Positions 2,847 through 63,682 of a stretch of 64,000 nucleotides of DNA are shown one piece after another. Made by a program: the position numbers and the translations under genes. The stretch is from a virus. The DNA lies in the IMG/VR virus record IMGVR_UViG_3300017971_000037, positions 1 to 64,000 of that record; one strand, 5' to 3'. Below the pieces are notes generated by a model. That model had not been told where the DNA came from. It did not search any database and saw only the letters and a list, made by a program, of their open reading frames with translations. Within the stretch, counting starts at the first letter, position 1; every line of letters starts with the position of its first letter.

Positions 2847-3048
2847 GACGACGTACGTGGACATTGGCAAGGTTTCGATCGAGCGGGTCACCGCGAAGGC
2901 GGTTCTCGTGAAGCGCGGCGACAAGGACCACTGGATCCCGCTGTCGCAGCTCGAAAGCGACACGGCCACCCGGGTACTCGCCAAGGCGGAGACCCTGGAC
3001 AAGTGCGAGGTCGCGGACTGGTTCGTGGAGAAGGAGATCGACGGGTGA
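2839..3048 (+). CDS. Small SH3-like hypothetical protein (69 aa)
   Basis: ATG 2839 follows GGAGAA. The core VTAKAVLVKRGDKDHWIPLSQL resembles a small phage protein family in which a beta barrel ends with a WIPxSQ motif. A coiled tail follows (EVADWFVEKEID). The family has no established function. The stop overlaps the GTG of the next small gene. Confidence 0.65.
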   Translation: MGKTTYVDIGKVSIERVTAKAVLVKRGDKDHWIPLSQLESDTATRVLAKAETLDKCEVADWFVEKEIDG

Positions 3049-14923: not shown

Positions 14924-15239
14924 TGCAGGCTCCTGTCGTGTCGATGTATAGGGTAGCGTGTCCGCCTACGGTCACATCGTCTGTGTCCCACCGCTCGGTG
15001 CCCAGCGCCTGCTGGCCGTCGCTGCGGGACCCGTTGATTCCGATCTCCGCCCCGCTGATGCAGGGGTTGTGGTGGCATGCGACCTGAAGAACCGCTAGCG
15101 CTCCGAGGGTCATCCACGTCATCCAGGTGATGCGGTCTCCACCGAACATCCGATGCCCGGTCTCCGCAACGCATGCGATGGTCAGGACGAACGGCAGGCC
15201 GTAGATCACGACGCCCAGGAAGTGCAGTGTCGATTCCAT
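14910..15239 (-). CDS. Membrane protein (109 aa)
   Basis: The ATG at 15239 overlaps the primase stop (TGATG), and the longer upstream frame is rejected. Two hydrophobic helices (LHFLGVVIYGLPFVLTIACV and MTWMTLGALAVLQVAC) are followed by a soluble tail with Cys residues and DVTVGGHATLYIDTTGAC. It directly precedes, and is coupled to, the PEP-CTERM-tailed protein, so a joint role at the envelope is plausible. Confidence 0.6.
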   Translation of the reverse strand: MESTLHFLGVVIYGLPFVLTIACVAETGHRMFGGDRITWMTWMTLGALAVLQVACHHNPCISGAEIGINGSRSDGQQALGTERWDTDDVTVGGHATLYIDTTGACNAPQ

Positions 15240-17590
15240 CAGAAGATGTCCTCCTGCTCCGGGCCGGGAAGTTCGATCTCCTCTTCGGGCTCTTCCCCGA
15301 CCCAATCACCCTGACCATAGACCTCGACCCACCTCTCGCGGCAATCCTCGAGGTCCATGAACTGGTAGACCTTCCGACGGCCCGTCGAGACCGACGAGTT
15401 GCCCTTCTTCACCGGAGCGACCTTGCTCAGGAAGCGACCCCAGTGAACGCGCGTCTTCGGGTTTCGGAAGCTCTTGCGCTTCGTGTACTCCAGGTAGTCC
15501 TGGTAGAGGGTGTCAGTCAGCACGACCTGCGGCCACGGCACGCTGCCAGGATCGTCGTCGAGCATGCGGCCCTCGACCAGCTTGTCGAACCACCACTGTT
15601 CCTCGGTGTCGTAGCTCTGCATCTGCTGCTCCTGCAGCGCCATCGTCGTCGGAACGTGGCGGACATCAAAGCCGGAAAGATCGTAGTTGAGCAGGTTGTA
15701 GAGAAACCCCTCTCGCCCTCCGTTGTCCATCTGCTGTTGAATCGCACCGAAGTACTCAGCGTCCCGGGCCCGTGCATCGCTCACGTCAAGAACGAGGAAG
15801 CGGCGCTCGCTCCGACTGTGGGCCGGAACGACCCAGTCATGGTTCGAGGCCATCATGAGGTGCAGGCAGTTAGTCGCGGTTTCGATGTCGACGCCCTTGG
15901 CCTCGATCTGCATCGTATCCTCGGTGACGATCATCTTCAGCACGCCTTCGTGCTTCTTGTCGCCGGCGTAGAAGGCCTCGTCCGCGAAGATGAAGACGCA
16001 GTCCCGGAGGTGGGCGTTGAAGTTCCCGACGAGCTGGCTGGAGTGTCCGACCTGCATGTAGTGTCGGCCCAGGAGGGCCCCGAGCTGCTTCGCGAGGAAC
16101 GACTTCCCCGTCCCCTGCTGGCCGCGCATCACGATTGCCGTCTGCCCAGGCTCGCCGGGATGCTGGATCATTCGGGCCATCCAGCCCATTACGTATTCGA
16201 AGTAGGTGTCCTTGCCTTGGCAGACGTTTTCGCGGATGTGCTCTTCGAGCTTGTCCCACCGCCCCGGGCGTGCTTCACAGGAGAAGCCTCTCCAGAGGTT
16301 GTACGAGTCCGGCACTTCCTGGTTCGGAACGAAGATGACCCGCTTGAACTGTCGCCGGTCCGGATGCTTCAGCCACCAGTCGCCCAGGGGCATGTACTTC
16401 GGGTTCCCGTCCTTGTCGGACCCGACCTCCACCCGTCGGTTCATGTGCGCGTTCTTGAAGTCGCCGAAGCTCATTGACGAGAGGCGCGAGCGCCGGAGGA
16501 TCGGATCGTCCAGCTCTTCGATCACGCGGCAGCGTCCCCCGAAGTTCTCGATCACCGAGTAGCGGTCATTCATCGCCGCCAGGTTCGGATCGATCGCGAA
16601 TTCCTTCGCCTTCCCGATCTGGCGTTTCGCATAGCTTTCGACGTTCGCGCCCTTGTCGAGCACTGAGTCGCTGATGCCGAAGTCCGGGTCCGTGATCAGC
16701 GAGAAGATGACCTCGTCGGGCACGTTGCAGCGAACAAGGTTGCAGACGCAATCGAATAGCCAGCTCGATCGCGAGTCGTCTTCCTTGGGCGGTTCGTCGG
16801 GATGCCGCCCCTGGACGATGATGACCTTCACACGGTCGGGCACGTCCCACTCGTCCAGCTCGTCCATCGTGGCGATGCGGGCAATGTTTCCGCTGATCTC
16901 GACCGTCTGGGACGACGCTCCGAACAGCTCGTTCGTCTGCGTGGGCGCGGCCGGCGTGAACTGCGAGAGCGAGTAGATCCGGCTCTGGTCGAAGACCTCG
17001 ACCTTCGCCAGCTCCTCGCTCCGACCCTTCGCGCGCTTCTTCGCGTCGGGGACGTTGACGGTCCCTGGCAGCCGCATGATGCGATCGACGTTGTGGCAGT
17101 TGTCCGCGCCGAAGAGCAGCTCGAGCTGCAGGTTCCAGCGCTTCGCGGTCTCGGCCAGGCCGACGTCGCCGTTGATCTCGAACTCCTCATCGAGCCGCCA
17201 GAAGCCTTGGTAGCCGCCGCCCGAGAAGATGACCGCCGTGGGCTTCGGAACGCCGGCCGGCGGATCCAGCAGCTGGGTCAGGGCGCGCTCTCGCTCTGCT
17301 TGGAGATCCTGACCGTCACGCGGGTCGACGTCGACGTGCAGCCAGCGCATGCCCCGCATGTCCTCGCGGAGTGCCTTCTTGTCCATCGGTCCACGCGTCG
17401 GGTTGACGTGGAAGTAGATGTTGCGGGTGCCGTTGTACTTCTCGATCCACTCCGCGCATTCGGTGTCCGTCTCGGCCTCGAACGTCGCGGTGGTGATCGC
17501 CTTGCGATCCACGGCGATCGCAGTCAGCACCCAGAGCCCAGAGGGCTCGTACTGCTTCAGGAACTCGATTGCTGCCGGGGTATCGGTCAT
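15239..17590 (-). CDS. Primase-helicase (D5/P4-type, 783 aa)
   Basis: The N-terminal part is a primase-polymerase (AEP)-like domain with MRWLHVDVDPRDG (metal-binding DxD), IFSGGGYQGFWRL and NVDRIMRLPGTVN. The C-terminal half is an SF3-like ATPase with Walker A GQQGTGKSF near residue 493 and FIFADEAFYAG near 535, then the ATNCLHLMMASN segment typical of the DUF5906/P4 group. It should synthesise primers and unwind at the fork, together with the polymerase at 19,056-21,137. It is coupled at both ends to its neighbours. Confidence 0.85.
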   Translation of the reverse strand: MTDTPAAIEFLKQYEPSGLWVLTAIAVDRKAITTATFEAETDTECAEWIEKYNGTRNIYFHVNPTRGPMDKKALREDMRGMRWLHVDVDPRDGQDLQAERERALTQLLDPPAGVPKPTAVIFSGGGYQGFWRLDEEFEINGDVGLAETAKRWNLQLELLFGADNCHNVDRIMRLPGTVNVPDAKKRAKGRSEELAKVEVFDQSRIYSLSQFTPAAPTQTNELFGASSQTVEISGNIARIATMDELDEWDVPDRVKVIIVQGRHPDEPPKEDDSRSSWLFDCVCNLVRCNVPDEVIFSLITDPDFGISDSVLDKGANVESYAKRQIGKAKEFAIDPNLAAMNDRYSVIENFGGRCRVIEELDDPILRRSRLSSMSFGDFKNAHMNRRVEVGSDKDGNPKYMPLGDWWLKHPDRRQFKRVIFVPNQEVPDSYNLWRGFSCEARPGRWDKLEEHIRENVCQGKDTYFEYVMGWMARMIQHPGEPGQTAIVMRGQQGTGKSFLAKQLGALLGRHYMQVGHSSQLVGNFNAHLRDCVFIFADEAFYAGDKKHEGVLKMIVTEDTMQIEAKGVDIETATNCLHLMMASNHDWVVPAHSRSERRFLVLDVSDARARDAEYFGAIQQQMDNGGREGFLYNLLNYDLSGFDVRHVPTTMALQEQQMQSYDTEEQWWFDKLVEGRMLDDDPGSVPWPQVVLTDTLYQDYLEYTKRKSFRNPKTRVHWGRFLSKVAPVKKGNSSVSTGRRKVYQFMDLEDCRERWVEVYGQGDWVGEEPEEEIELPGPEQEDIF

Positions 17591-56632: not shown

Positions 56633-58291
56633 TCAGCGATTGAACGGGACGATCATCGGTGCGGATCCGACGATCGCGGTCTTCTGCATGGTGAGACGCA
56701 TGAAGGCCCGCGACAGCGCATCTGCCTGATCCTTGAACTCGCCGTTGGGGAACAAGCATAGCTCATTCACGAGAGAATCGTTCCAGCCCGCCCGCAGGAG
56801 GTAGAGGTTCCCCGCTTCGCACTGGGCCTGCGCCGGCCGGATCCGCTGCTCCTTCGATCCCGACTCTGGGCTCGAGTACGCGTCGTAGCCCGCGAGGCTG
56901 TCGATGAAGGCGGATCGCTGGAATTTCCCTGCCTGGCCGGGGTCTTGGGGGATGTCGACCATGACTTCGTGCCCATCCGCCTCGGTCGTGCGGATCAGCG
57001 CCTGCTCCACCTCGAACGGCGAGAGCCGCTCCCGCAGCACGTCGAGGATCACGAACCCGCCCTTGAACCGCCCGAGCTTCAGCCCCACCGTGTACGGGCT
57101 CTTCTTCCGCTCGCTGCCTGCGAAGTCCCAGCCGCGCACGATCTCACCGCACTCCGGCGCGATGTCCAGGAACCGGAAGTCGGAGCGCTGGAACGCGCCA
57201 CCGCCGCGCGGCGCCGGCCGCTGCTGCAGCTGACCAGCCTCGGCGTACGATCCGCCCCAGCTCCGGAACGCGTTCTTCAGCTCCTCGACCGACTCGTACG
57301 TGAACCGCTCGGGCCAGAGCAGCTCCCCGTCTTCGCTCCGCCGATCCTGGCACCACACGGTCTTGAACTCGCCGGCCCAGTCCTCGGGCGCGCGGGTCCG
57401 ATCGTCACCTTCGGGGAGATCGCGCCGCTCCTCCAGCTCCTCCTCCGTCAGCCACTCCGGCAGCGCCATCCCCTCCGTGATGAACCGGACGCGCCGCTCG
57501 GGGGGAGAGTCCTTCCGCGGGACGACGGAGAAGCTCCGGGTCGCCTTCTCGAACTCCATCGGCAGGCAGAGGTGCTCGTAGTCCAGCTCCTTGCTCAGGA
57601 TCAGACCACTCACGTCCCGCTCGTGAATCCGCTGCATGATCACGACGATCGCGGACTTCGAAGGCTGGTTCAGACGCGTGGGGAGCGTTTCGGAGAACCA
57701 CCGGAGCGCGTCTTCCCGGACCACCTCGGACTCCAGATCCCGGACAGCATGAGGATCATCAAGGATGATGCGATCACCACGATGGCCAGTAAGTCCACTG
57801 CCAGTAGAACTAGCTTGTCGCCAACCCGTCTGGTCGTTCTCGTAGCGGATCTTCGCATTCTGATCGCCCTTGAACTGCCAGACGTCGCCCCAGTTCTCCT
57901 GGTACCACTCCGAGAGCGCGAGGTCGCGTGAACGGATGTGGTCGCGAATCGGCAGCCCTTGGTCGTACGCGCAGGTGATGTACCGATAGGTGGGCAGTCT
58001 AGCAGGCCCCCACTCGTACATCGGCCAGAACACCGAAGACGACATCGACTTCGTGCAGCCAGGCGGGACGTTGATCAGCAGCCGCCGGATCTCGCCGTCA
58101 GTCACCGCTTGCAGATGCTCGCAGATGGCCTCGACCGCCCAGCCGTAGACGAACTCCGCCCCGGGTTCGAGCGCGTGCCACCCCGCCTTCATGAACTCGA
58201 GCAGGGAATCCGCCGCCTGGGCTTTCGCCAGCTCGCGCTGGGTCTGCTCCGGGTCGCGCAGGAACGGAAGCAGGAGTTCTAGACTGTCCAT
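56633..58291 (-). CDS. Terminase large subunit (552 aa)
   Basis: ATG 58291 overlaps the stop of the gene before; earlier in-frame starts are antisense noise. The ATPase has Walker A PPGCTKS (76-82) and Walker B IILDDPH (D178, D179), with coupling motif QRIHERD. The nuclease domain starts with RGWDFAGSE, continues VMVDIPQDPG and ends near ALSRAFMRL. Cys80 in the P-loop is unusual. It packages DNA with the small subunit. Confidence 0.85.
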   Translation of the reverse strand: MDSLELLLPFLRDPEQTQRELAKAQAADSLLEFMKAGWHALEPGAEFVYGWAVEAICEHLQAVTDGEIRRLLINVPPGCTKSMSSSVFWPMYEWGPARLPTYRYITCAYDQGLPIRDHIRSRDLALSEWYQENWGDVWQFKGDQNAKIRYENDQTGWRQASSTGSGLTGHRGDRIILDDPHAVRDLESEVVREDALRWFSETLPTRLNQPSKSAIVVIMQRIHERDVSGLILSKELDYEHLCLPMEFEKATRSFSVVPRKDSPPERRVRFITEGMALPEWLTEEELEERRDLPEGDDRTRAPEDWAGEFKTVWCQDRRSEDGELLWPERFTYESVEELKNAFRSWGGSYAEAGQLQQRPAPRGGGAFQRSDFRFLDIAPECGEIVRGWDFAGSERKKSPYTVGLKLGRFKGGFVILDVLRERLSPFEVEQALIRTTEADGHEVMVDIPQDPGQAGKFQRSAFIDSLAGYDAYSSPESGSKEQRIRPAQAQCEAGNLYLLRAGWNDSLVNELCLFPNGEFKDQADALSRAFMRLTMQKTAIVGSAPMIVPFNR

Positions 58292-58698
58292 CAGGGGAGC
58301 ACCTTGGGCAGGACCGAAACGCTCAGGAAGGCGAGAGCGTCGGCTTCGGGAACGGCGCCCTTCGGGTCGGAGCATATCACGTAGTCGAACCGCCGACCGC
58401 CCAGGGCGGAACCCCATGAGGCGTAGTGGATCGAGCCGCCCTCGTCGTTGTGGAGGGTCATGTAGTCTCGGCGCGCGCCCGTGATCCGCTGCGCGCGCTT
58501 GAGGTAGCGCTTCGCCAGCTCCATGGTGCTGGTGAGGACGAAAACGCGGGCCGCTTCGGAGACGTCGCCCCAGATGTGGGCTGGAAAGTCCGCGGAGCAC
58601 CACTCGGCGCGATCGGGATCGTGGATCGCGTAGAGGGAGCTGTTGCAGTGGACCGTGACGGAAGGGTCGAATTGAAAGGCGGTATCTGCGTAGGACAT
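58291..58698 (-). CDS. Hypothetical protein between HTH gene and large terminase (135 aa)
   Basis: The protein ends with SWGSALGGRRFDYVICSDPKGAVP and includes VFVLTSTMELAKRYLKRAQRI, giving a P-loop-free Rossmann-like impression similar to parts of terminase or nuclease folds. Coupled to both neighbours. Function unknown; packaging is a guess from position. Confidence 0.5.
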   Translation of the reverse strand: MSYADTAFQFDPSVTVHCNSSLYAIHDPDRAEWCSADFPAHIWGDVSEAARVFVLTSTMELAKRYLKRAQRITGARRDYMTLHNDEGGSIHYASWGSALGGRRFDYVICSDPKGAVPEADALAFLSVSVLPKVLP

Positions 58699-58982
58699 CA
58701 GGACTGATCCCAGTGGTTGGGGGGCTTCACGACGGTGCGGACCCAGGCTTCGGACTTTCCGATTCGCTTTGCGATCGCGCGGGGGTGGAGTCCCTGCTCG
58801 AAGAGCCGTTTGGCACGGCGCGCTTTGCGCTGGGCGGAAGCTCGAGGTGGCTTCTCGATGTCGAAGGGGACGTTGGTGACAGGGCCAGCGGTGGACTGGC
58901 TCTTCTGCACGACGTTCGTCGCGAGGGAATCGAGGTCCGGGCAGAGCGGGTCGTCTACGATGATTACGGTGGGGGAATTCAT
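58698..58982 (-). CDS. HTH protein (94 aa), possible terminase or regulatory
   Basis: The C-terminal half (QRKARRAKRLFEQGLHPRAIAKRIGKSEAWVRTVVK) is a clear helix-turn-helix. N-terminal half is acidic/hydrophobic (PTVIIVDDPLCPDLDSL). It begins the terminase-to-capsid run and could be a small terminase or a regulator. The separate gene at 59,794-60,414 is a stronger small-terminase candidate. Confidence 0.6.
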   Translation of the reverse strand: MNSPTVIIVDDPLCPDLDSLATNVVQKSQSTAGPVTNVPFDIEKPPRASAQRKARRAKRLFEQGLHPRAIAKRIGKSEAWVRTVVKPPNHWDQS

Positions 58983-59793
58983 GGTGTTAGTTGGGCGCCT
59001 CGGGTTTCAAAATTTTTTGTGGGAAATTTGGCGATTCGGTTTTTGATTTTTGCTTATCGATTGCCAGGTCGCAAATGAGCAATATGGATGCAATTTGCCA
59101 GCAATTTGCGCATTGCCTGCTTCTTCGTTGCACATGAGTTGCGCATTCTGCACATGCCTTGCCTCCTACTTGCACATTGCTTGCTCATAAGCTGCTCATT
59201 TTGCGTATGACTTGCATATCAAACTCACATTTGTGATGCATACATGCACATGAGTTGCTCATTTTGCCTATAAGCTGCCCCCATACTGCGCACCCCTTGC
59301 ACATGAGTTGCTCATTTTGCACATGACATGCACACCATCTGCCCCCTTCTGCCTATAAGCTGCCCCTCCCCTGCATCCGAGTTGCTCATTTTGCCTGTCC
59401 CATGCACCCCCCTTGCACACGGGGTGCCTGTGGGCTGCGCATTCTGCACATGGGGTGCCTGCTGGATGCCCCCCTTCTGCACACCCCCTTCCTAAGATGC
59501 CCCCTTCCTGCACACCCCCTTCCTGTGGGCTGCGCTCGAGTTGCGCATTCTGCCGGTCCGCTGCCGGGAAGGTTCTGGCATTTGCTAGCAGGTGCGTGTT
59601 AGTTGCCGGTCCGCTTCTAGAACCTTCTCGCAGCGAGTGCGCAACTCGATCCGCCGCTGCACATTTCTTGCTAGCAGGTTCCGGCATCTGCGCATGCCAA
59701 CTTTCGCGGCGGCACCCCGCTAGCGCCCCGATAGCACCCCGTGCGCAACTGCAAGGGGCCGGCAACCGATGCGCACCTGCTAGCACCTGCACG
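58983..59793. other. Long gene-free stretch holding the TGC array
   Basis: No convincing gene is visible in this 811-bp stretch. The left 60 bp is AT-rich with runs of T. The rest is the TGC-phased repeat array and its imperfect continuation. A 204-codon minus-strand frame across it is Cys/Ala/Gly-rich noise. It lies between two HTH genes of the packaging region. Confidence 0.7.
59051..59606. repeat. TGC-phased 11-bp degenerate array
   Basis: TGC (GCA on the other strand) recurs at regular 11-bp spacing, with occasional 9-bp steps. Positions include 59107, 118, 129, 140, 149, 160, 171, 182, 193, 202, 213, then 256, 265, 276, 287, 298, 309, 318, 329, 340, 350, 361, 372, 383, 392, 403, 414, 425, 436, 445, 456, 467 and 478. 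The 9-bp units read TGCTCATTT or TGCGCATTC. The 8 bp after TGC vary. The period is not a multiple of 3, so it is not coding. It is not a CRISPR array (no spacers). Confidence 0.85.
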
Positions 59794-60414
59794 CTAGTTG
59801 CCTTCGCTCGAGACTTGCACATCGACTGCGCTCGAGATTCCTTCGTTTTGCAGGTCCTCTTCCGTAGGCACCAGACCGGCAAGCTCTGAGAGGACGATGC
59901 GCAACGCTCGCCGCCCTTCGGGGGAAAGCTTCTGCACGAGAGTTGCGTCTAGCGCGCCGACTCCCTGCTGCTTCTCTGCCGGCAGGTCGCCGATCACCCG
60001 ATCGGCACGATCTATGACTTTCGCCAGCAACCCATCGGCATATTGCGTGACTGTCCCCACGGGTTCGCCATCCCGGTTGAACCGATCAACTTGCACGCCT
60101 TCTACCGCTCGGCGGGTGGCTTCCCGCACCAAAGAATCACGATACCTGCACACTGCCTCCCGGACTGCTGCCGCGAATTCTGGCACCCTTGCCTGGTAGG
60201 TGCGTGCGACTTGCGTGCTGCACCCCGCGACATCGGCAGCGCGTGCGAGTCCGCCATGCGTTTCGACTTCCCGCAGGTACACCGCGCGAGCAGGCGCCGG
60301 GAATGTGACCGGCATGTAACCCGCAGACGTGTCGCGGGCCCGCTCAATGACTTCTAAGGCCTCGATGGCCCGCTCCCGCTCCCGCTCCGATTTTACGATT
60401 TCATCCTCGCTCAT
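59794..60414 (-). CDS. Small terminase-like protein (206 aa)
   Basis: The N-terminal part has a helix-turn-helix (YLREVETHGGLARAADVAGCSTQVARTYQARVPEFAAAV) and the following EAVCRYRDSLVREATRRAVEGV, then QYADGLLAKVIDRAD. This order matches small terminase-like phage proteins. It lies next to the TGC array and other packaging genes, which would place a pac/cos-type recognition site close by. The C-terminal tail is acidic. Whether it, or the 94-aa HTH protein, works with TerL is not settled. Confidence 0.6.
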   Translation of the reverse strand: MSEDEIVKSERERERAIEALEVIERARDTSAGYMPVTFPAPARAVYLREVETHGGLARAADVAGCSTQVARTYQARVPEFAAAVREAVCRYRDSLVREATRRAVEGVQVDRFNRDGEPVGTVTQYADGLLAKVIDRADRVIGDLPAEKQQGVGALDATLVQKLSPEGRRALRIVLSELAGLVPTEEDLQNEGISSAVDVQVSSEGN

Positions 60415-60816: not shown

Positions 60817-60860
60817 CCCCCTCAAGCTTTCGCGCCACCCACCGATAGATCAGTCACGGC
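60817..60860 (+). promoter_or_regulatory. P1, promoter-like element
   Basis: CTCAAG (60821-60826) is followed after 14 nt by ACCGATAGATCAGTCAC. This is the first of five similar elements (P1-P5), each before an early gene. The 30-nt leader to ATG 60891 ends GGAGCAAACCAGA. Confidence 0.6.
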
Positions 60861-61524: not shown

Positions 61525-61566
61525 CCTCTAAGGTTATTCGGGGCCCGACCGATAGGTATATCATAA
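61525..61566 (+). promoter_or_regulatory. P2, promoter-like element
   Basis: CTCTAAGG (61526-61533) is followed by ACCGATAGGTATATCATAA from 61548. The leader to ATG 61601 ends GGAGCAAACCAAA. Confidence 0.6.
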
Positions 61567-62520: not shown

Positions 62521-63019
62521 AGCTGCACATCGGTCAGGAGAGCGCAGTCCGTAGGCAACTACAGGCTGCGCTTTTTTGTTTGTCCGTTTCGAATTTTGCT
62601 ATCAAGTTGCACAATCTCGAGTCAGCAGCCGGTGCGCAGTTTGAAAAATGCACTCAAGCTGCACATGCGCAACTCGCAAGCAACTATCAAAACTGCGAAT
62701 TTTGCACTCAAGCTGCGCATCGGCAACTCATGTGCATCTCTCGAGCTTTCGAATTTTGCACTCAAGTTGCGCATCGCCCAACCGGCAACTCAGGTGCAAT
62801 GTTCAGAATGCACTCAAGTTGCGCCTGGGCTGCACACGAACCATCACCTGAGTTGCACTCGAGACTCACGCCCGTAAATGGCCCGTATCGCGATTTTTCG
62901 AGGGTACCCGTCGGATCATACCGGCGACCGTTGGCACGATTCTCCGGCGATCCTGCGGCGCCTAACGCCACATGCGCAACTAGCATGTAACTAATAAAAT
63001 AACGAAAAAACATCAAAAA
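62521..63019. repeat. Intergenic repeats with TGC pairs
   Basis: This 499-bp stretch has no convincing gene. It contains about five copies of a unit related to AATTTTGCACTCAAG(C/T)TGCGC, around 62,590, 62,645, 62,700, 62,755 and 62,805. In each, two TGC are 11 bp apart (62597/62608, 62649/62660, 62703/62714, 62757/62768, 62809/62820). GCAACTC words also recur. It resembles the 59-kb array in TGC spacing. Confidence 0.75.
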
Positions 63020-63056
63020 CCCCTAAAGTTATGGGGGCACTAACCGATAGGGTAGT
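63020..63056 (+). promoter_or_regulatory. P3, promoter-like element close to a start codon
   Basis: CCCCTAAAG (63020-63028) is followed by ACCGATAGG (63043-63051) and the ATG is at 63057. If CCGATA is the -10-like part, the transcript would start at or near the ATG, so a very short or absent leader is possible. Confidence 0.55.
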
Positions 63057-63644: not shown

Positions 63645-63682
63645 CTCAAGCGCGGGCGCCGCGCGCCGATAAGTAGATCATA
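63645..63682 (+). promoter_or_regulatory. P5, promoter-like element
   Basis: CTCAAG (63645-63650) is followed after 15 nt by CCGATAAGTAGATCATAAC. The leader to ATG 63701 ends GGAGCAAACCCA. Confidence 0.6.

Follow-up and report, generated by a model that had tools for sequence, protein, structure and literature searches.

Genomic setting of the array

The window, by which we mean the whole analyzed stretch of 64,000 nucleotides, corresponds to bases 1-64000 of a 69,649-bp IMG/VR virus record. It belongs to a tailed phage (G000) with a circular-mapping genome of ~69.5 kb, the circular map being deduced from an exact 123-bp terminal repeat at the record ends, which most likely represents the assembler's k-mer. 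The genome encodes TerL, TerS, DNA polymerase, primase, helicases, ribonucleotide reductase, thymidylate synthase and a C5 methyltransferase. Its late genes are on the minus strand and the genes to the right of ~60.9 kb are on the plus strand, and its distant TerL relatives came mostly from alphaproteobacteria and their phages. A 61-amino acid Fis-family helix-turn-helix (HTH) protein, possibly a phage DNA-bending protein, is encoded at 2175-2360 (PF02954, 8e-7; 73% in the related complete genome G001). GCGGCC is enriched (35 versus 6.4 expected) among the plus-strand early genes at L002:1900-5850 (65.7-69.6 kb of the record), which surround the C5 cytosine methyltransferase gene (L002:4054-5025).

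The terS gene (59794-60414, minus strand) encodes the small terminase subunit, an HTH-domain protein (phrog_4044, E 2e-14; AlphaFold model) and the candidate binder of the array described below. About 800 non-coding bases separate terS from the next gene, which starts at 58982 on the minus strand. This gene (58698-58982), the first after the array, encodes a small HTH_23-like protein for which a homologue was not found in G001. It is followed on the same strand by a gene for a small protein preceding terL (58291-58698; conserved in G001, 39%) and by terL (56633-58291), encoding the large terminase subunit (phrog_38, E 5e-66; PF17289). The array, which a first-pass annotation had described as lying next to packaging genes, is indeed situated between terS and the terL operon.

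A TGC array between terS and the terL operon

The non-coding array spans ~500-700 bp, equivalent to ~50-60 helical turns. Its main part (59051-59606, plus strand) consists of head-to-tail units of 11, 10 or 9 bp with a coherent period, and a weaker continuation (59607-59793, plus strand) extends to the 3' end of terS, with TGC-N8-TGC at 59658 and 59788 on the plus strand and at 59630, 59734, 59751 and 59762 on the minus strand. The main part contains 52 TGC, with 31 pairs at a lag of 11, 7 at a lag of 9 and 2 at a lag of 10, and further lag peaks at 20, 22, 31 and 33. In 300 dinucleotide shuffles, the number of lag-11 pairs averaged 2.8 and reached at most 8, bearing out the TGC autocorrelation expected by the first-pass annotation. 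When all trinucleotides were scanned across the window at periods of 10.2-11.2, TGC at 59001-59750 gave the strongest signal. Successive TGC gaps over 59051-59800 included 28 of 11 bp, 7 of 9 bp, 3 of 10 bp and none of 12 bp, and the longest unbroken chain with steps of 8-13 bp ran for 23 steps with a mean of 10.48, so that the earlier count (more than 40 steps) was slightly overstated. Gaps left by an absent TGC often correspond to whole turns (20, 21 or 22).

The array is not CRISPR, coding sequence or a simple tandem repeat, as had been claimed. Its lags (11, 20, 31 and 53) are not multiples of 3, the signal survives the exclusion of lags divisible by 3, and TRF reports just a short stretch at 59465-59525. 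Another helix-phased window, at 18.1 kb, lay in genes whose sequence is coiled-coil-like (21-bp heptads), and it fell off the top list after the same exclusion. The numbers of sigma70-like promoters and terminators near the array were not above chance.

Helical register of the array

Fourier analysis gave a best period of 10.6 for the array (power 27.7; shuffles reached no more than 8.8), and the power at 11.0 was 0.4. The earlier description of TGC recurring every 11 bp holds for most single steps and fails for the coherent period, which is 10.5-10.6; interspersed 9- and 10-bp steps restore the register and hold it over hundreds of bp. With this long-range period the TGC lie along a single face of the helix, as had been proposed. 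Permuting the order of the steps destroyed the register, which was kept in 0 of 2000 permutations in G000 and the relatives L004 and L007 (0.003 in L006), a test that is not fully independent evidence since the array was shaped by block duplication that respected the turn. The self-match peaks of the array fall at 11, 20/22, 31, 42, 53 and 64, and larger blocks recur at spacings of 42, 53, 63, 74, 106, 116 and 127 bp, near whole turns, which points to such duplication.

The B-DNA pitch suggests that the array works as DNA and counts against an A-form RNA scaffold, one of the roles suggested by the first-pass annotation. One A-form turn is 11 bp, and the array region may be transcribed together with the late operon, as would suit a source of structured or scaffold RNA. 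However, there is almost no power at 11, neither strand is predicted to fold clearly more stably than shuffled sequence (z -0.48 and -1.32), and no Rfam match was found for the array, which makes an RNA role highly improbable.

Unit structure, conserved core and AT-rich tract

Pooling 96 units from six phages gave the 11-bp consensus TGC-N-Y-(A/C)-Y-N-A-(C/G)-(T/C), of which TGC is the only constant part. The 9-bp units resemble TGCTCATTT and the 10-bp units resemble TGCTAGCAGG. Units are mostly oriented head to tail, with TGC-TGC at lag 11 occurring 32 times and GCA-GCA 8 times, an arrangement that fits a cyclic ring or a polar filament and not a two-fold dimer.

Alignment of the six phages revealed a conserved core of ~37 bp (59071-59107, minus strand) that contains four GCA (TGC on the minus strand) at steps of 8, 11 and 11 bp, and is oriented opposite to the remaining array. 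Adjoining the core is a conserved AT-rich tract (58996-59052), possibly a promoter, an unwinding region or a cutting region.

Conservation in relatives

We examined five relatives with upstream DNA present (L004, L005, L006, L007 and L008; TerL 76-87%), and all five carry a TGC array at the same place, in line with the conservation that the first-pass annotation would expect. The core and the AT-rich tract are kept, and the array filler has diverged. The best period was 10.5 in L004 and 10.55 in L006 and L007, and the register of about 10.5 is clear in these three; the TGC spectrum was not significant in L005 and borderline in L008, where nine 10-bp steps follow one another. Across the complete G000 and G001 genomes, with lags divisible by 3 excluded, no non-coding window was more strongly helix-phased than the array locus. 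Because the TGC phasing is kept while other letters have changed, the array is probably a one-sided docking strip on DNA for a ring- or filament-forming protein. A pac region or an array for an oligomerizing protein, both listed by the first-pass annotation, remain the best readings. Whatever the binder, a register selected over 500 bp with the remainder free to turn over is an unusual and searchable signature of a nucleoprotein platform, one that ordinary repeat finders miss.

More distant relatives carry arrays of other words. In L013 and L014 (TerL ~54%), a non-coding ACC/TCA array lies directly upstream of terS (L013:5030-5300), with lags of 10, 20, 41, 51 and 61 in L013. G004 (TerL 46%) has arrays of GTAAGA-N5-GTAAGA, in which the words are spaced by one turn, in two places: one at the start of an early operon 3.7 kb from terS (L281:200-600) and the other ~0.85 kb upstream of terS (L281:3328-3510). 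A 9-bp ACTCGACCT repeat is located between the second array and terS. Scanning 159 further TerL relatives yielded few other strong windows, mostly repetitive or coding-like. The array is thus lineage-specific; its word changes while the register is kept. Purely intrinsic phased bending, another of the roles suggested earlier, appears less likely, since the phased word is a strand-biased TGC here and is different in distant relatives.

Several candidates were discarded as helix-phased arrays: the L015 signal is a 42-bp repeat, the L283 signal has a period of 12, and a TGTACA cluster in L012 is weakly phased. The latter comprises eleven TGTACA in ~250 bp of non-coding DNA (L012:1070-1315), ~0.6 kb upstream of terS; past position 3000, the other 11.5 kb of the locus contains a single copy. 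No comparable array was seen near the terminase genes of nine annotated phages reached through distant TerS/TerL matches, which include Shewanella S0112, Rhodobacter RcRudolph and Pseudomonas PaMx11. A single-sequence TerS search of viral contigs returned nothing, a clade-alignment TerS search returned the known members alone, and a search with the AT-rich motif returned the G001 record alone. A search of open-access literature turned up no account of such a helix-locked array, an outcome that speaks only weakly for novelty.

TGC pairs and promoters in the early region

TGC-N8-TGC occurs 115 times in the window (38.6 +/- 6.7 expected), mostly at 59-64 kb and on both strands, and 53 times at 63.8-69.6 kb (4.6 expected). 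A secondary cluster lies in an early intergenic region (62588-62826, plus strand), where five TGC-N8-TGC are spaced by 52-54 bp, or five turns, some facing inverted copies. AGTTGC/GCAACT and TGCGCA are more than 20-fold commoner in the early than in the structural region, both within and outside genes (60415-66000 of the record), an enrichment absent from G001. A repeated element resembling a phage promoter, CTAAAG-N16-CGATA(A/G)G with the offset constant at 22 bp, was found at 60821-60849, 61528-61556, 63023-63051 and 63645-63673 and in L002, and is often followed by the leader GGAGCAAACC ahead of a start codon.

The array might activate or silence the late (terL/structural) operon from upstream, and early promoters as well. 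A phage transcription factor would then bind TGC-N8-TGC near promoters and, upstream of the late promoter, build up into an extended assembly on one side of the DNA. The position of the array directly upstream of the minus-strand operon starting at 58982 is consistent with this, as are an early-promoter-like CGATAAG at 59059 (minus strand), the five-turn spacing of the 62.6-kb cluster, the G004 array at an early operon start, and several CTAAAG-N16-CGATAAG early promoters with TGC-N8-TGC 50-80 bp upstream. However, the early region is so dense in TGC-N8-TGC (83 in 5.6 kb) that closeness to promoters is weak evidence. Moreover, neither L004 nor L006 conserves the CGATAAG, G001 keeps the array without the early-region enrichment, and an activator array of 60 turns would be unusual. 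We judge a role in transcriptional control unlikely.

The spread of TGC pairs across 59-66 kb would also suit a platform for another wrapping or bridging protein, such as a phage histone-like protein, a Fis-like protein or host gyrase, that condenses or supercoils the junction of early and late genes. The phage encodes the Fis-family protein at 2175-2360, which is conserved in G001, and a helix-phased register would, from general knowledge, suit gyrase wrapping. Fis-type dimers, however, prefer palindromic sites, whereas the array units are direct repeats; gyrase has no strand-specific word, and the array stays at terS throughout the clade. In our judgment, the probability of such a platform is low.

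Comparison with replication-origin iterons

We considered whether the array is a replication origin, with iterons for a phage initiator, e.g., the primase-helicase (15239-17590), and with the AT-rich tract as the site of unwinding. Such a tract does flank the array and is conserved, and the oriR of SPP1 is an example of an intergenic origin with direct repeats located among late genes (PMC6316719). Viral contigs were scanned for TGC repeated at steps of 11 bp; more than 100 matched, with arrays often inside an open reading frame of ~200-350 codons, and the 11-bp direct-repeat arrays of all ten TGC cases scanned lay within initiator genes of the O-like, DnaD-like or primosomal type. With CGT, the reversed word, as control, 103 contigs matched. 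Since the control was equally frequent and 10 of 10 TGC matches were initiator-gene iterons, the scan defines no TGC family, and a TGC-specific class of arrays was rejected. Rigid 11-bp iterons of many different words lie inside initiator genes in ~200 viral contigs (L034-L255).

The arrays from the scan, whose pattern itself favored 11-bp steps, had mean steps of 10.98 (116 arrays) and 10.97 (103 arrays). This rigid unit length, 10.97-10.98 over 219 arrays, is not shared by the arrays at terS, which range from 10.0 to 10.6; the G000 array mixes steps of 9, 10 and 11 with a mean of 10.48. With the caveat that the scan pattern favored 11-bp steps, different selection seems to act on terS arrays and on origin iterons. 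Furthermore, no O-like or DnaD-like gene was seen among 30 G000 genes scanned, the array is distant from the primase gene, and GC skew gave no clear origin. We consider an origin at the array quite unlikely.

A possible packaging-initiation platform for TerS

The reading we tentatively favor, with somewhat less than even confidence, is that the array is a packaging-initiation (pac) platform carrying one TerS half-site per helical turn. The half-site would be TGC plus a loose NYNY pattern, one per B-DNA turn and mostly in one orientation. TerS rings or arcs, with HTHs about one turn apart and pointing in the same direction round the ring, would bind successive TGC cooperatively, and the bound DNA would bend or wrap round the ring. 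A nearby site, perhaps the core and the AT-rich tract, might then be presented to TerL for the first cut. Binding by TerS, wrapping of the DNA and a start of packaging at the array are all inferred from the B-DNA-pitch register, the head-to-tail units and the place of the array beside terS. The array abuts the terS 3' end in G000 and is likewise placed in the five relatives. The array of another word directly upstream of terS in L013/L014 and the Sf6-like HTH of TerS also argue for this reading. The predicted HTH (residues 35-94) best matched Sf6 TerS (Z 8.2, 2.0 A over 59 residues), and Foldseek alone gave no significant PDB match. Structural matches at this Z are modest, and TerS is identified chiefly by the family call (PHROG small terminase).

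In published TerS rings, neighboring HTHs are about one B-DNA turn apart, one SF6 TerS domain covers or occludes 3-5 bp, and pac DNA may wrap the ring (PMC4737164), a geometry that suits same-oriented TGC spaced by one turn. In SPP1, direct repeats occur in the pac region, which overlaps the beginning of terS (PMC4737164, PMC6316719), and the SF6 TerS DNA-binding domain showed little sequence specificity (PMC4737164, PMC6316719). How small terminases recognize DNA is disputed between wrapping round the ring (Greive 2015) and reading in the tunnel (HK97, 2024). The finding that HK97 TerS reads DNA emerging from its tunnel (PMC11331095) and a review that doubts wrapping (PMC9611059) count against a wrapped pac. 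Other points against a pac are the phased array of G004 that lies 3.7 kb from terS and the spectra of L005 and L008, and the TGC-N8-TGC pairs scattered through the early region of G000 are left unexplained by a pac alone.

The pac may act as a helical code, in which ~60 turns each present a strand-specific half-site, several TerS rings wrap the DNA, and the word differs between lineages at a constant register. We know of no pac as long as this array. The helical code is a doubtful proposal; if true, it would be a case in nature of a wrapped terminase ring recognizing DNA by its sequence, and the wrapping model has been criticized because it seemed unable to give such specificity. A natural array with a half-site per turn beside terS makes the dispute directly testable, using one protein and phase-shifted DNAs.

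Comparison with known systems

The array resembles SPP1/SF6-type headful pac sites in its place beside terS (which those sites adjoin or overlap), in its direct repeats and in the HTH type of TerS, and the DNA of those sites has likewise been proposed to bend round an HTH ring with one-turn spacing (PMC4737164, PMC6316719). It differs in lying between terS and the terL operon and in having ~60 helix-locked units of a 3-bp word, to which TerS is the candidate binder, instead of a few boxes. Like phage origin iterons (lambda O, SPP1 gp38, O-like/DnaD-like genes), the array consists of one-turn direct repeats next to AT-rich DNA. Those iterons are mostly inside the initiator gene, number 6-12 units and have a rigid 10.98 step, whereas the array is intergenic, far longer and locked at 10.5. 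The parC site of plasmid R1 contains 11-bp iterons for ParR in two groups of five units; it shares 11-bp direct repeats with the array and is bound by a ring- or helix-building protein, and no partition genes were noticed among the G000 genes scanned. Finally, the complexes of phi29 p6 also involve phage DNA with phased signals, which guide wrapping by a protein multimer. The p6 protein reads bendability at a 12-bp phase with no fixed word, whereas the word of the array is fixed and strand-biased and recurs at 10.5 bp.
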